A stretch of 64,000 bases of DNA from Spirosomataceae bacterium TFI 002 (GTDB taxonomy: Bacteria; Bacteroidota; Bacteroidia; Cytophagales; Spirosomataceae): assembly GCA_900230115.1 (NCBI GenBank), contig LT907983.1, forward strand, positions 496,001 to 560,000, written 5' to 3'. Below are positions 56,855 to 61,669 of the stretch, piece after piece. Made by a program: the position numbers and the translations under genes. Positions within the stretch are counted from its first letter, which is position 1. Every line of letters starts with the position of its first letter. The notes under the pieces were generated by a model. It saw nothing but the letters and a program-made list of their open reading frames with translations, had not been told where the DNA came from and searched no databases.

Positions 56855-58183
56855 TTAAGCTTTATAAATAATTCTGACAAGTGGATTTTCTTTGTTGATA
56901 ATCTTAAATTTATTCGAAGTTTTCAACCCTATAACCCAGATAATTTCGCCCTTAGAAAGTAGTACAAGTACTTCATTTTTTTTACTATTGGGTAGTTTTT
57001 TATCTATTAATATATCGCTTATTAGTTTCGTTCCTTTCATTCCAAAAGGTTGGATTCGATCTCCAAATTCCCAAGTACGAAGTATCAAAGGAAATTGTAA
57101 ATCGTCCTTTTCAAAAAAAACACAATAGGGATCTGAATAATCTAACTTTCCTTTGAAATCCTCAGCTATGATACTCTTCCCCTTCTCTATTTTTATGTCC
57201 GAATTGAGTGTAACTTCTTGGTGAATAGAAGTTTTAACTTTGGAGTTTCTAATTGAAAAATACCCCCTTTCTACATACAGTTCTATACCTGAACCTGTGA
57301 ATTGCGATCCAACTTTCCTCTCTTCCTTTTCAACAAAGTTTCTAATTGTATTGATGTCAAACCCTTTTTCAGCAAGAAATTCAACAAATACTGCTTTATT
57401 AACAGCATCATTCAATAGCTCCACTGGAACTTCCCAAGAATCGTGAAGCTTGTATTTTTCATCAAAAGCAAACAACTTTTGTTTTAATACATCAACCCAT
57501 AAACCAGTCCTCCATCCTGAATTGTAAAAAGTATGCTCTAGGTGTGGGTTGATACCTTTCAGTAAAGGAAGGACCTTGTTTCTAAGTAAGTTCCGTTGAT
57601 ATTCGTTACTTTCATTACTTGCATCCTCTCTCCATTCAAGACCTTGCGAAATGGCATATGCCTTTAATTCTTCTTTACTAAAGGCTAATAAAGGTCGGAG
57701 AATTTTGCCATTCGAGGCCGCAATACCCTTCATCCCAGCTATTCCAGAGCCTTTTGTCAGGTTGAGTAAAGCAGTTTCAAAATTATCTCCCGCATGATGA
57801 GCAGTTACTAAATAGTCAAAATGGAATTGCAGAATTAAGTTATTAAACCAATTATATCGCAATTCCCGAGCTGCCATTTCTATAGAAATGCCATTTTCTT
57901 TCGCATAAACTTCGGTCTCGAAATCAATACAATGCATTTTAACGTGATGCCTTTCGCATAGATTGGACACAAGAACCACATCTTTATCACTCTCCTCTCC
58001 CCTCAACTTAAAGTTACAATGTGCCACTTCAAAATCAATGGAGTGTTGCATAAGGAGATCAAATAGCACAATAGAATCAAGCCCTCCACTCAAAGCGAGG
58101 AGTACCCTTGCTTTGGGAGTTGAAGTTACCAAACGATTAAAGATTGTTAAAAATCTTGTTGCTAATTGAGTTTTTCGAGCCAC
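56855..58183 (-). CDS. tilS: tRNA(Ile)-lysidine synthase
   Basis: Converts C34 of the CAU-anticodon tRNA-Ile to lysidine, switching its identity from Met to Ile. The 442-aa protein has the PP-loop LLALSGGLDSIVLFDLL, HCNFKLRGEESDKD and VTAHHAGDNFETALLNL, plus TilS C-terminal domains ending in RTWEFGDRIQPFGMKG. Start is GTG at 58183 within 6 nt of a -7 box, so the mRNA may be leaderless. Essential gene in most bacteria. Confidence 0.95.
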   Translation of the reverse strand: MARKTQLATRFLTIFNRLVTSTPKARVLLALSGGLDSIVLFDLLMQHSIDFEVAHCNFKLRGEESDKDVVLVSNLCERHHVKMHCIDFETEVYAKENGISIEMAARELRYNWFNNLILQFHFDYLVTAHHAGDNFETALLNLTKGSGIAGMKGIAASNGKILRPLLAFSKEELKAYAISQGLEWREDASNESNEYQRNLLRNKVLPLLKGINPHLEHTFYNSGWRTGLWVDVLKQKLFAFDEKYKLHDSWEVPVELLNDAVNKAVFVEFLAEKGFDINTIRNFVEKEERKVGSQFTGSGIELYVERGYFSIRNSKVKTSIHQEVTLNSDIKIEKGKSIIAEDFKGKLDYSDPYCVFFEKDDLQFPLILRTWEFGDRIQPFGMKGTKLISDILIDKKLPNSKKNEVLVLLSKGEIIWVIGLKTSNKFKIINKENPLVRIIYKA

Positions 58184-58187
58184 GAGA

Positions 58188-58208
58188 GCAAAATTAAGCT
58201 AATTTTGC
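58188..58208. promoter_or_regulatory. Divergent back-to-back -7 boxes in a near-palindrome (tilS/ostA)
   Basis: GCAAAATTA-AGC-TAATTTTGC: 9-nt perfect arms. Read forward, TAATTTTG (58200-58207) precedes the GTG of the OstA-like gene by 4 nt. Read in reverse, TAATTTTG (58196-58189) precedes the tilS GTG by 5 nt. Neither gene has room for a leader or ribosome-binding site. Confidence 0.65.
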
Positions 58209-58211
58209 GAG

Positions 58212-59921
58212 GTGAAAATATTTCGTCTTATCCCTGTCATAGCTTTAAGCCTTTGGGCTTCATCTGCCTTTTCACAAAAACCACTCAATCAACCTGTAGA
58301 TAGAGGTCCCAAAAGCCAAATTCAGCTTATTAGTGCTGATAGTCTTGTAGGGACAAGTGGTTTGGAACAACAAAGAATCTTTATTGGGCACGTAAAATTC
58401 CGCCATAGAGGAGTTGATTTATGGTGTAACAGAGCGGTTCACAATGTCGGAAGCAACAACATTCAGGCTTTTGGAAATATTTATATTAACCAAGGAGATA
58501 CGCTTACCATAACGGGAGACACCTTATTTTATGAGGGAAATACACGCTTTGCGAAGATATTTGGAAAGAAAGTTACCCTTACAGACGATTCTACAAAACT
58601 TGTTTCCAAACAAGTAAATTATGAATTGAATAGAGACCTTGCATATTACCCTCACCCTGGAGTAGTAACAAAAGACTCTAGCGTTCTTAGTAGTAAAAGT
58701 GGCTATTACAATACGGCATCAAAAGAGTTTCAGTATTTCGGAGATGTCGAAATAAAAACACCAACCTCACTTTTATGTACCGATACGCTGTTTTACAATG
58801 GTAATACTGGACTGGCAGTTTTTAATACCCATACTAGCATTACTTCAGAGGACGGGACATTATCTGCCTTTAAAGGAAATTATAATACCAAATCAAAAGA
58901 AGCACAATTTTTTGGAAGGTCTCAGGTTGAAAATGAGGCCTACTATTTAAAAGCAGATACACTTGAATTTAACAATGAATTACAAGAGGGTTTTGGTAAA
59001 GGAAATGTACTTTTCCATAGCAAAGACGAAAACCTTTATATCAATGGTGCTTTTGGAGAAAAAATAAAGTCCGCGGCTTACACCAAAATGGTAGGCAATA
59101 CCCTCACCAGGAAAATAGAGGGAAAGGATACTCTTTACATGAGTGCAGATTCCGTAATTGCTTATGATTCCAAAACTAAAGTTATAAAAGTAGACTCATC
59201 AATTGCAAAAGCCACTCCATCAGTAATAAAAGACAGCTCATTAGCTAAGATTGATACTATTCTAATTGCCCCAAAAGACACTACTGTCATTTTAGCAAAA
59301 GTAGATAGTAGTGCAATATCTGCTACTGACACCACTAAAACACGAGTAGAGTTCATTATCGCAAGCGGAAATGTTAAGATTTATAGAAATGATTTTCAAG
59401 CGATTTGTGATTCCCTTAATTATGATTTGGTAGATAGCCTTATTTCATTTTTCGGTAAACCGATAATTTGGAATGGAGATAACCAACTAGTTGCTGACTC
59501 CATAAATGCAGTTTTAGTAAAAAATAAAATAAACAAACTTTACCTAAACCAGCGGAGCTTTGTAATATCTCAGGATACAGTGGGTAATTTTAATCAAATA
59601 AAAGGCAGGCAGATTGAAGCACTATTTGATAGTACATCGGCAATAAACCAGGTAAATGTATTTGGAAATGGTGAAAGTTTATATTTCGCATTAGATGAAG
59701 TAAATAAACTTGTAGGACTCAATAGAGTAATATGTAGCAAAATGAATCTAAAGTTTGCCGATAAAAAAGTAAGTAGGATTGCTTTCATTGGTGTTCCTGA
59801 AAGCAAACTTATCCCACCACAGGAGATTGGTGCTCAGATGAATAAGTTAGAAAGCTTTGATTGGAAAATCGACAAAAAACCTTCGAAAAAAGATGTACTT
59901 GGATCGATTCTTGTACTATAA
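58212..59921 (+). CDS. OstA-like protein (LptA/LptD N-terminal type repeats)
   Basis: Secreted protein likely handling LPS in the periplasm. The 569-aa precursor has a signal peptide (about 1-22, SSAFSQ) and tandem OstA/LptA beta-jellyroll segments (VKFRHRGVDLWCNRAVHNV, GNIYINQGDTLTITGDTLFYEG, and later repeats). No C-terminal LptD barrel is present; that is normal for this Bacteroidota OstA-like group. A low-complexity Asp/Thr/Lys/Ala segment lies at about 330-375. GTG start 4 nt after a -7 box. bamD is two genes downstream. Confidence 0.87.
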   Translation: MKIFRLIPVIALSLWASSAFSQKPLNQPVDRGPKSQIQLISADSLVGTSGLEQQRIFIGHVKFRHRGVDLWCNRAVHNVGSNNIQAFGNIYINQGDTLTITGDTLFYEGNTRFAKIFGKKVTLTDDSTKLVSKQVNYELNRDLAYYPHPGVVTKDSSVLSSKSGYYNTASKEFQYFGDVEIKTPTSLLCTDTLFYNGNTGLAVFNTHTSITSEDGTLSAFKGNYNTKSKEAQFFGRSQVENEAYYLKADTLEFNNELQEGFGKGNVLFHSKDENLYINGAFGEKIKSAAYTKMVGNTLTRKIEGKDTLYMSADSVIAYDSKTKVIKVDSSIAKATPSVIKDSSLAKIDTILIAPKDTTVILAKVDSSAISATDTTKTRVEFIIASGNVKIYRNDFQAICDSLNYDLVDSLISFFGKPIIWNGDNQLVADSINAVLVKNKINKLYLNQRSFVISQDTVGNFNQIKGRQIEALFDSTSAINQVNVFGNGESLYFALDEVNKLVGLNRVICSKMNLKFADKKVSRIAFIGVPESKLIPPQEIGAQMNKLESFDWKIDKKPSKKDVLGSILVL

Positions 59922-60110
59922 TTTTTGAGCACAAGAATGACCTCCAACTTAGAATCTCGGAACTTATTGTGTTAAAATTTAATAATTTCTATAACCAAAG
60001 CAACCTTTTCGCATTGATTTGCGTCTAATATAAACAAATAGCAATCTTTTTTGCTTAAGTTTACGTAAGTGAAACGATAACAATACTGAATGATTTAAAA
60101 TTTTAGCAAC

Positions 60111-60671
60111 TTGAAAAGATATTTTTACATACTGATCACCTTGATTTCCTTTAGCTTTGCAGCAATTGCACAAAGTTCTAACGAGTCTTCACGATTGAAT
60201 GTAGGAGCTAATCCTAAGTTGCCTAATGTTAAATCTGACCTTAATGGTTATTTAGTTCGTGCCGTACCTAGCGAAGTAAGCTACAGTAAGTCTGCAGCGG
60301 TTTCAGATTTTTACAAAAAACTTCTTATCACCTCAAAGAAAACTACCAAGCCAACTCCTAAAGTTGTATTCAACAATAAGGAAATGGAAGACTATCTTTT
60401 TTCAAATGAGAAAGTTGTGGTATCAAATGTATATCCTAATCCTGCAAATGATTTTGCCTACATTGATTTCAAAGTAAAAGAAAGATCTTCAAAAGCTTCT
60501 ATAAGCTTTCACAATATCGTTGGAGGCCAATTATCGGCTGTTAACCTTGATCCTTTAGATGACAAGATTGCGGTATCAACGCGTAACTGGGATAATGGGA
60601 TTTATTTCTATCAACTTATCGTAGACGGTAAAAAAGTAGCTACTAAGAAACTACTTGTTCGTCACAATTAA
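60111..60671 (+). CDS. Small T9SS cargo protein with type A sorting domain
   Basis: A 186-aa precursor: signal peptide (about 1-21, AAIAQ), about 80 residues with no recognised domain, then a C-terminal T9SS type A sorting domain. The diagnostic region is VVVSNVYPNPANDFAYIDFK, followed by beta strands, NGIYFYQLIVDGKK and the basic end TKKLLVRHN. It should be exported across the outer membrane by the type IX system and anchored or released. TTG start at 60111; no ATG upstream in frame. Confidence 0.87.
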   Translation: MKRYFYILITLISFSFAAIAQSSNESSRLNVGANPKLPNVKSDLNGYLVRAVPSEVSYSKSAAVSDFYKKLLITSKKTTKPTPKVVFNNKEMEDYLFSNEKVVVSNVYPNPANDFAYIDFKVKERSSKASISFHNIVGGQLSAVNLDPLDDKIAVSTRNWDNGIYFYQLIVDGKKVATKKLLVRHN

Positions 60672-60736
60672 CAATTCTTCACTTTTGCTACTATAATTTT
60701 CTAACGGACACACCGTTAGTTTGAAAACGCTTTTTG

Positions 60737-60744
60737 TACTTTTG
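60737..60744 (+). promoter_or_regulatory. -7 box (TACTTTTG) 4 nt before the bamD ATG
   Basis: TACTTTTG fits TAnnTTTG and is separated by only CCGA from the ATG at 60749, predicting a leaderless mRNA. Confidence 0.55.
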
Positions 60745-60748
60745 CCGA

Positions 60749-61669
60749 ATGATTAAAAACCTTGTTCTTTATTTTGTTTTGGGCTGTGTGGCCATATTCA
60801 CAACTTCTTGCCACAAAGAGTTCACAAAACTTCAAAAATCAGGTACAGTTGAACAGAAATATAAGGCGGCTATCAAATATTATAATGAAGCCGACTATTA
60901 TTATGCAGGTCTACTGTTTGAAGAAATATCTCCCTTACTGAAAGGAGATTCAACTGCTGAAAAAACACAATTTTACAATGCTTATTGTAACTACTACCAA
61001 AGTCAATTCCAATTAAGCTCATATTTGTTCAAGAACTTTTATGCTACATATGCCAACAGTCCTTTCGCTGAAGAGGCCTTTTATATGTATGCATATTCTA
61101 TGTTTAAAGATTCCCCTACTTTTAACTTAGATCAAACAAGTACGCTTACTGCAATTGATGCATTGCAGACATTTATAAATACTTTCCCAAACAGTAAGTA
61201 CGCTGATAATTGTACTCAAAACTTGAGAGACCTTCGTACTAGATTGGAGAAAAAGGCATACGAAAAAGCCAAACTCTATTATAAGACGAGTAATGTTGGC
61301 TACCCCGGACTAGCGAATTATAAAGCAGCGGTTATAACTATTGATAACTTCGCTAGAGAATTCCCGGACTCTCCTTATAATATGGAGCTGAGGTACCTTC
61401 AAATTATTTCTCAATATACGCTTGCTGATAACTCCATTTACAGTAAGCAAAAAGAGCGTTTTGAGAAAGCAATGTCGCTTTATGAAAGCTTTAAAGATAA
61501 GTATCCAACAACTACCTACGATAATGAGCTTGCAGGTATCTACGGAAAGTCTCAAAAAGGCTTAACGAAAGTGCTCGAAATAGAAGAGAAAATCAAAAAG
61601 GCGAAGGAAGAATACGAGAAAGAGCAAGCAGCTTTGAGAGCTGAAGCAGCTACAGAATCAAAGGATTAA
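60749..61669 (+). CDS. bamD: Outer membrane assembly lipoprotein BamD
   Basis: Essential TPR lipoprotein of the BAM complex that inserts beta-barrels. The 306-aa protein has a lipobox signal peptide (FTTSC, Cys about 21), the YfiO opening FTKLQKSGTVEQKYKAAIKYYNEADYYYAG, and about five TPR-like repeats including FINTFPNSKYADNC and FAREFPDSPYNMELRYLQ. The C-terminus is a Lys/Glu/Ala-rich helix. Start at the ATG 60749, after the promoter. rpoZ follows. Confidence 0.94.
   Translation: MIKNLVLYFVLGCVAIFTTSCHKEFTKLQKSGTVEQKYKAAIKYYNEADYYYAGLLFEEISPLLKGDSTAEKTQFYNAYCNYYQSQFQLSSYLFKNFYATYANSPFAEEAFYMYAYSMFKDSPTFNLDQTSTLTAIDALQTFINTFPNSKYADNCTQNLRDLRTRLEKKAYEKAKLYYKTSNVGYPGLANYKAAVITIDNFAREFPDSPYNMELRYLQIISQYTLADNSIYSKQKERFEKAMSLYESFKDKYPTTTYDNELAGIYGKSQKGLTKVLEIEEKIKKAKEEYEKEQAALRAEAATESKD

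Follow-up and report, generated by a model that had tools for sequence, protein, structure and literature searches.

Genetic organization of the tilS/ostA divergent region

We analyzed a stretch of 64,000 nt from Spirosomataceae bacterium TFI 002 (assembly GCA_900230115.1, contig LT907983.1, positions 496,001-560,000), hereafter referred to as the window. Its features relevant to this study are the following:

56855..58183, minus strand: tilS, coding for tRNA(Ile) lysidine synthetase (442 aa, GTG start; PF01171, PF11734, TIGR02432, TIGR02433)
58163..58165, minus strand: TTA codon at the homologous tilS start position, 23 nt after the minus-strand box
58188..58208, no strand: palindromic core GCAAAATTA-AGC-TAATTTTGC holding both putative -7 boxes; its sequence is conserved as CAAANNTA-NNN-TANNTTTG
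58189..58196, minus strand: putative -7 box TAATTTTG of tilS, 5 nt before the GTG at 58183-58181
58200..58207, plus strand: putative -7 box TAATTTTG of the ostA-like gene, 4 nt before the GTG at 58212-58214; predicted transcription start at 58212
58212..59921, plus strand: ostA-like gene (OstA_2, PF13100; 569 aa, GTG start followed by an N terminus that resembles a signal peptide by eye)
60737-60744, plus strand: putative bamD promoter box TACTTTTG, 4 nt before the ATG at 60749-60751, a third leaderless geometry in the window

Profile matches in TilS correspond to a PP-loop ATPase domain (PF01171, 6.6e-51) and a TilS C-terminal domain (PF11734, 3.8e-09), with both TIGR02432 and TIGR02433 exceeding the cut-off. 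The gene tilS is usually essential. The ostA-like product carries OstA-type domains (PF13100, 1e-46; PF03968, 1.7e-07) and scores under the cut-off for the NCBIfam LptA and LptC equivalogs, hence a precise LptA role is not established for this gene.

The original prediction placed at this locus a palindrome containing TAATTTTG in both directions, 4-5 nt before two GTG start codons, and this is what is found at 58188-58208, with spacings of 4 nt for ostA and 5 nt for tilS. Its two 9-bp arms match perfectly in inverted orientation around a 3-bp centre, and the two boxes that they hold are separate, share no base and lie 3 bp apart; GCAAAATTANNNTAATTTTGC has a single match in the 5.46-Mb genome, the tilS/ostA core itself. 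The predicted transcription start of tilS is 58184 if the spacing is 4 nt, or 58183, the G of its GTG, if it is 5 nt. In-frame ATG codons further upstream, named beforehand as evidence against these starts, occur in neither gene, as a stop precedes any other ATG, GTG or TTG upstream of both GTG codons. Near the N terminus, the only start candidate of ostA is its GTG, while tilS has its GTG and a TTG 17 codons in. The two GTG starts are separated by 28 bp (58184-58211), as described; the missing ribosome-binding site, also put forward, is uninformative because Bacteroidetes are reported to lack Shine-Dalgarno sequences (PMC6847099).

The arrangement of the boxes compared with chance

The window contains 7 perfect inverted repeats whose arms reach 9 bp or more and whose loops span 0-8 nt, while 10 Markov resamplings gave 3.6 on average (range 0-11). 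This count is near chance, and statistical rarity as an inverted repeat was accordingly rejected for the palindrome. The density of TANNTTTG is also at chance level (80 versus 84.4). By contrast, a divergent pair carrying TAHHTTTG 4-5 nt ahead of each of its two starts is expected approximately 0.0005 times among ~674 such pairs, a figure scaled up from the 156 counted in a sample of 1.264 Mb of the organism's own genome. The arrangement of boxes before both starts thus exceeds chance, whereas the bare inverted repeat does not. Opposed boxes within 30 bp were observed in 6 of 138 divergent gene pairs of the sample, tilS/ostA included, against 0 pairs for each of four control motifs.

We also considered a genome-wide class of symmetric promoters with a 3-bp centre. 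The pattern CAAANNTA-NNN-TANNTTTG occurs at 45 sites in 16 genomes, 14 at tilS/ostA and 31 elsewhere, compared to 34 for a reversed-pattern control, and tilS/ostA is its sole site in three of these genomes (G014, G157 and G021). Such a class is unsupported, the count being at chance level once the tilS/ostA site is removed. When any centre of 0-30 bp is allowed, the window's own genome contains 75 matches versus 49 for the reversed pattern.

Conservation of the opposed boxes among relatives

An ostA match is present in 217 of 222 genomes of the family. We examined 53 ostA loci (L018-L070, the window's own being L018), namely those of the best-scoring 30 of 39 genomes, plus another 23 with the best scores among the 222 genomes of the family; 3 of the 53 have no tilS match in the stretch. 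All 16 listed genomes of genera g1, g15, g20, g22 and g23 were examined, together with 10 of 11 of genus g43. A TilS search of genome contigs returned 16 distant loci (26-40% identity), left out of the conservation counts; L006 (Flavobacteriales) is the only one among them with an ostA match in the stretch as well.

Conservation of the palindrome, proposed with the original prediction as a way to check it, was found at tilS/ostA in 14 of 16 loci belonging to five genera, the window's included, in the form CAAANNTA-NNN-TANNTTTG. The fifteenth (L056) has one mismatch, with a degenerate plus-strand box TAATTTTA, and the arrangement is absent from L065, as it is from L067 (genus g47), which the tree places beside the 16 loci. 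With one locus per genus, the mean majority-base frequency reaches 0.94 in the 19-bp core compared to 0.55 in the ungapped flanks. Eleven of 14 relatives, L056 counted, have TATTTTTG as the minus-strand box and TAATTTTG as the plus-strand box, so that symmetry exists only where TANNTTTG requires it. In the neighbouring genus g43, both boxes are present at 10 of 10 loci but with their order reversed, so that they stand face to face and 4 bp apart, and nine further loci carry the same two boxes with other gaps. The comparison of the two groups sets them only against each other and leaves uncounted the 28 rows that belong to neither, L065 and L067 among them.

Box-to-start distances and the predicted leaderless mRNAs

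Distances between boxes and ATG codons in the 1.264-Mb sample, where a simple ORF caller requiring 100 aa or more and choosing greedily by length defined the genes, peak at 4-5 nt with a second peak at 18-26 nt; these distances are approximate because the first ATG near the N terminus was taken as the start. The sample has 165 boxes upstream of ATG codons where the controls average 45; by distance, the counts are 11 versus 0.9 at 3-5 nt, 5 versus 2.4 at 6-14 nt and 37 versus 3.5 at 18-23 nt. The GTG distances of 4 and 5 nt at ostA and tilS coincide with the leaderless peak. Among the 22 start codons found at 3-6 nt in the sample, 3 are GTG, two of which are the tilS/ostA pair. In 200 kb of each of two relatives, G021 and G157, 0 of 14 and 0 of 20 boxes, respectively, lie 3-5 nt from a start, numbers too small to judge.

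In genus g23, 8 of 10 loci place an ATG 4 nt after the ostA box; the two exceptions include L065, which lacks the core and is outside the scoring of ostA distances. At 7 of these 8 loci an in-frame TTG lies 24-27 nt downstream and could be the real ostA start; in L068 it sits, by eye, within the signal-peptide core. The geometry in the window and at the eight g23 loci supports the proposal of a leaderless ostA mRNA, which we consider likely in this organism.

The case of tilS is different in the relatives. All 14 core-bearing relatives start tilS 22-24 nt after the box (13 with ATG, 1 with TTG), giving a leader of ~18-20 nt. The codon at this position is TTA in the window only, one base away from the TTG of L019, and consequently the upstream GTG remains as the tilS start. 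A leaderless tilS mRNA, the other half of the prediction, is likely here, where the other near start is the internal TTG; the leaders of its relatives indicate that this form is neither the rule nor conserved, and that it is probably a lineage-specific shift. Alternatively, both boxes could be promoters while tilS keeps its old start, either at a non-canonical TTA or at an ATG or TTG hidden by a sequencing error, with the GTG unused. The uniform start position of the relatives and the single base that separates TTA from the TTG of L019 speak for this alternative. We nevertheless regard it as unlikely, given that TTA is not known to serve as a start codon, that the genome is a single contig, and that the GTG lies open and in frame, at a distance that other genes of the same genome show in the leaderless geometry. 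Moreover, it is inapplicable to ostA, whose GTG is the only start near the N terminus.

Two probable opposed promoters at tilS/ostA

In the promoters reported for F. johnsoniae, TAHHTTTG occupies -12 to -5, leaving 4-5 nt to the start, and further motifs rich in A/T are located at -18 and -28 (PMC6847099). Both tilS/ostA boxes conform to the sigma-ABfr-type -7 consensus TANNTTTG (TAHHTTTG), with H at the two variable positions, and are kept together in 14 of 16 loci; the predicted 4-5 nt spacing and the A/T-rich DNA near -18 are likewise shared with promoters of this class (PMC6847099, PMC9723704, PMC7366714). No TTTG element was found at the expected -33 distance upon inspection of the tilS/ostA sequence, which is not decisive because this signal is weak across 107 boxes of the same genome and much less evident in F. 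johnsoniae (PMC6847099).

It is quite unlikely that one box alone works, or that transcription starts inside the opposite gene, the other box being a by-product of symmetry. In E. coli, the bidirectional promoters that are located between divergent genes and drive two mRNAs are reported to be only 24% of the total (PMC12825309), and among the 50 loci with a divergent tilS, 12 have a single strict box and 5 have none. However, five genera retain both boxes, as does g43 with their order changed, and the next TANNTTTG upstream of ostA (57235, plus strand) and of tilS (59171-59178, minus strand) are each almost 1 kb away. Very unlikely is an operator through which a dimeric regulator would control one or both genes, the likeness to -7 boxes being secondary: a perfect 9-bp inverted repeat conserved between divergent genes has a usual operator form, but the half sites are identical in only 2 of 14 relatives (L020 and L049) and otherwise symmetric only at TANNTTTG positions, a palindromic operator would not survive the reversal of the boxes in g43 or the other gaps in nine loci, and the chance-level count of the pattern elsewhere in these genomes gives no hint that such sites form a regulon. 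The reverse order in g43 favours two separate -7 promoters over an operator.

We interpret the tilS/ostA core as very probably a back-to-back promoter pair retained by related bacteria, a reading already proposed and now well supported by conservation across five genera and by the consensus and spacing of the box in the Flavobacterium literature. The core would be a symmetric pair of housekeeping (sigma-ABfr-type) promoters in which each TAATTTTG acts as the -7 box of one gene. As the back-to-back boxes are 3 bp apart, the A/T run in either of them would fall at about -16 to -23 of the opposite promoter, a zone that is A/T-rich in this promoter class. RNA polymerase could bind in either direction, presumably one at a time since the footprints would overlap, as deduced from distance, and transcription would begin 4-5 nt after each box, at or beside the GTG, yielding leaderless or nearly leaderless ostA and tilS mRNAs. 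We give this explanation as a whole a probability of about 0.72. Promoter activity, the start sites, mutual exclusion of the polymerases and initiation at a 5′-terminal GUG are inferred from what is directly observed, namely the sequence, its conservation, the box-to-start distances and their two-peaked distribution in the same genome.

Discussion

The bidirectional promoters already understood are those of E. coli sigma-70; the opposed pair described here would serve the quite different housekeeping sigma factor of Bacteroidetes. The E. coli group reportedly treated -10 symmetry in an earlier paper. Symmetric promoter DNA between divergent genes, starts a few tens of bp apart and an expected exclusion of one polymerase by the other would be common to both systems (PMC12825309). 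Unlike E. coli promoters, which are reported to share a common -10 element with starts mostly 18 bp apart and frequently 10 or 23 (PMC12825309), tilS/ostA has two whole -7 boxes, another sigma-factor class and predicted starts 28-29 bp apart; divergent starts around or within a shared -10 element, the defining trait in the E. coli sense, are not what this locus presents. The original prediction also held that the two polymerases would compete and thereby couple tRNA modification to LPS transport; in E. coli, all five bidirectional promoters tested had a basal activity too low for competition (PMC12825309). Reports on sigma-ABfr deal with single promoters (PMC6847099, PMC9723704, PMC7366714), whereas at tilS/ostA two opposed boxes are conserved together. 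A limited search, largely of titles and with most subscription papers outside its scope, found no published opposed promoter pair in Bacteroidetes.

As in known leaderless mRNAs, the start codon would stand at the 5′ end of the message, which here is predicted from geometry (PMC4633059, PMC9031893). Leaderless mRNAs are reported to be a minority in Bacteroidetes, amounting to 5.5% in F. psychrophilum, while ~3.7% of 5′ UTRs are under 10 nt in B. thetaiotaomicron (PMC9723704, PMC7366714) and 87% of leaders exceed 10 nt in F. johnsoniae (PMC6847099). GTG is described as a functional leaderless start in mycobacteria (PMC4633059) and as a poor one in E. coli (PMC4633059, PMC9031893). Two GTG starts on one promoter pair are unusual, given that GTG accounts for only 3 of the 22 start codons at 3-6 nt in the sample.

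A broader reading, which we hold to be doubtful, is that overlap and exclusion are a conserved trait tying the expression of ostA, an LPS-transport gene, and of tilS, coding for a tRNA-modifying enzyme, reciprocally across much of the family, the boxes standing back to back around a 3-bp centre in one clade and face to face across a 4-bp gap in its neighbour, and that the window's lineage has lost both leaders so that both messages start with GUG. These two neighbouring clades with opposite box orders provide a natural test of whether the overlap is selected or incidental, and tilS/ostA offers a compact system in which leaderless initiation at GUG can be examined in a phylum that lacks Shine-Dalgarno sequences.

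A conserved, probable opposed promoter pair between tilS and ostA

In TFI 002, the GTG start codons of tilS (tRNA(Ile) lysidine synthetase, minus strand) and a divergent ostA-like gene (plus strand) are separated by 28 bp. The original prediction described here a near-palindrome carrying the same box in both directions, 4-5 nt before each GTG; this proved exact, coordinates included.

58188-58208, both strands: core GCAAAATTA-AGC-TAATTTTGC, read from the sequence, two boxes back to back

The box, TAHHTTTG, is the −7 element of sigma-ABfr-type promoters, the housekeeping class of Bacteroidetes. TAATTTTG is present on each strand of the core, and GCAAAATTANNNTAATTTTGC has its single match in the 5.46-Mb genome at this site. 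The plus box ends 4 nt before GTG 58212, which opens an OstA-like protein of 569 residues (PF13100 match), and the minus box ends 5 nt before GTG 58183, which opens a TilS of 442 residues (PF01171, PF11734, TIGR02432 and TIGR02433 matches). Neither GTG has a usual in-frame start upstream before a stop codon is reached, in keeping with the start codons originally chosen.

As a bare inverted repeat the core is unremarkable. The window holds 7 repeats with arms of at least 9 versus a mean of 3.6 (range 0-11) in ten Markov resamplings, and TANNTTTG occurs 80 times versus 84.4 expected. The improbable feature is the arrangement of the boxes relative to both starts: from the strict box density in 1.264 Mb of the same genome (hereafter the own-genome sample) and its 156 divergent pairs scaled to 674, the whole genome should hold about 0.0005 divergent pairs with boxes 4-5 nt before both starts.

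Promoters of Flavobacterium johnsoniae have TAHHTTTG as their −7 element, at −12 to −5 and 4-5 nt before the transcription start, with more pronounced A/T-rich motifs at −18 and −28 and a much less evident −33 motif (PMC6847099). Among 107 boxes upstream of an ATG in the own-genome sample, A/T reaches 83% at −18, and TTTG at −33 gives no clear signal. A 4-nt spacing would start ostA at 58212 and tilS at 58184; a 5-nt spacing would start tilS at 58183, the G of its GTG. With 3 bp at the centre, each box falls on positions −23 to −16 or so of its partner promoter and could act as the A/T-rich element there. We take the site to be a genuine pair of opposed promoters of the housekeeping type of Bacteroidetes, kept in related genera and with predicted activity. 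It would work like an E. coli bidirectional promoter, but these are defined by a shared −10 element, which the pair does not have, so that we regard it as a variant.

Box orders across the family

Of the 53 ostA loci examined, 50, among them that of the window, have a divergent tilS (about 700 bp apart in L044). Conservation had been proposed as a check on the original prediction, and CAAANNTA-NNN-TANNTTTG, with a centre of exactly 3 bp, is kept at tilS/ostA in 14 of 16 loci of genera g1, g15, g20, g22 and g23, covering all 16 family genomes listed for them. L056 has TAATTTTA at unchanged spacing, and L050 retains the core despite a tilS-ostA interval of several hundred bp; the pattern is absent from L065, one of the 16, and from L067 (genus g47), just outside them on the OstA tree. 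When each genus is represented by one locus, the majority base has a mean frequency of 0.94 across the 19-bp core versus 0.55 in ungapped flanks. The 16 whole genomes contain 45 core-pattern sites, 14 of them at tilS/ostA; the remaining 31 are at the level of chance, since the reversed pattern gives 34. tilS/ostA is the sole such site in three genomes (G014, G157 and G021).

Genus g43 has the boxes in the opposite order, TANNTTTG-N4-CAAANNTA, in 10/10 loci. By the strict TAHHTTTG census, nine more loci of other genera have face-to-face boxes (gaps of 5, 16, 16, 19, 21, 21, 22, 26 and 122 bp), and other loci carry the plus box alone (9), the minus box alone (3) or neither (5). A single change each is enough to place the back-to-back group and the face-to-face-N4 group on the OstA tree when the two are held against each other and the 28 rows belonging to neither are left out; g43 branches outside L067 and outside the fork joining the 16 five-genus loci (support 89/87, slightly under the tool's starred level). 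Since both boxes persist while order and distance vary, what is conserved is two promoters rather than a single palindrome. This speaks most strongly against reading the palindrome as the operator of a dimeric regulator, which we consider improbable; secondly, half sites are identical in just 2 of 14 relatives (L020 and L049), 11 of the 14 having TATTTTTG as the minus box and TAATTTTG as the plus box.

Across the 11 g43 genomes, TANNTTTG-N4-CAAANNTA has 84 sites, those at tilS/ostA counted, versus 31 for the reversed pattern, and the N6 version 38 versus 35; the genomes are related and their sites non-independent. Of the two gaps compared, the face-to-face spacing of 4 bp may be favoured in g43.

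Leaderless geometry and a probable shift of the tilS start

Box-to-ATG distances form two peaks, leaderless at 4-5 nt and leadered at 18-26 nt (loci L071-L130 and the window). In the own-genome sample, 11 first ATGs lie 3-5 nt from a box (control 0.9) and 37 at 18-23 nt (control 3.5), with 6-14 nt near background (5 versus 2.4); selection may act against leaders in the range of 2-10 nt or so in this genome. Genes at 4 nt include what look, from their N termini by eye, like PriA and SerC. Another lies in the window.

60737-60751: bamD box TACTTTTG and ATG at 4 nt, leaderless geometry

Because TACTTTTG lies 4 nt before this ATG, the TTG at 60734, which the mechanical ORF list gives as the start, is probably not the right one. 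In the own-genome sample, start codons at 3-6 nt number 22: 16 ATG, 3 GTG and 3 TTG. Two of the GTGs belong to tilS and ostA, and the gene with the third has further in-frame starts upstream. In two relatives (200 kb each), 0/14 and 0/20 boxes lie at 3-5 nt. Published figures put the leaderless share at 5.5% for F. psychrophilum (PMC9723704), with 5′ UTRs under 10 nt making up about 3.7% in B. thetaiotaomicron (PMC7366714). Mycobacteria are reported to use a 5′-end GTG efficiently and E. coli to use it poorly (PMC4633059, PMC9031893); for Bacteroidetes, the main text of PMC6847099 does not mention GTG or GUG, nor does that of PMC9031893 mention the phylum.

Leaderless geometry recurs in some relatives for ostA and not for tilS. 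The ostA ATG lies 4 nt from the box in 8 of 10 g23 loci, including L056 with its degenerate box (exceptions L050 and L065), seven of the eight having an in-frame TTG 24-27 nt downstream as a possible alternative start; in g15, g20 and g22 the first usable start is at 17-27 nt, an ordinary short leader. In all 14 relatives with the core (L056 counted), tilS starts 22-24 nt after the box (13 ATG, 1 TTG), with a leader of about 18-20 nt, and three have an additional TTG at 20 nt. In the window, TTA stands at the homologous codon, 23 nt after the box. On the simplest interpretation, the old tilS start was lost and the in-frame 5′-end GTG took over, making TilS six residues longer. Judged from box spacing, the ostA and tilS messages of TFI 002 are most probably leaderless.

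A 27-bp motif adjoining ostA

GCAACC-N17-GTCT, at a fixed length of 27 bp, recurs beside ostA.

60000-60026: 27-bp motif in the window, beyond the ostA end and ahead of the gene for a T9SS-sorted protein at 60111
L023, L024, L026, L034: 27-bp motif upstream of ostA, several outer genera
L040, L042, L058, L060, L062, L064, L066, L070: 27-bp motif past the ostA 3′ end (GCAACG variant in L070)

It resembles ECF-sigma promoters and may be one, linked to genes of the envelope. A looser form has no clear enrichment in the own-genome sample (5 versus 2 reversed).

Competition and coupling

With the promoters overlapping, two polymerases are unlikely to bind simultaneously. In E. coli, the basal activity of all five bidirectional promoters tested was too low for the two directions to compete, and competition can set in once one direction is activated (PMC12825309). 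The proposed link between tRNA modification and LPS transport is therefore hypothetical. In the own-genome sample, 6 of 138 divergent pairs, tilS/ostA counted, have opposed strict boxes within 30 bp of each other, all back to back, and each of the four control motifs gave none; overlapping box pairs recur at tilS/ostA across the family. These observations favour some role for the overlap.
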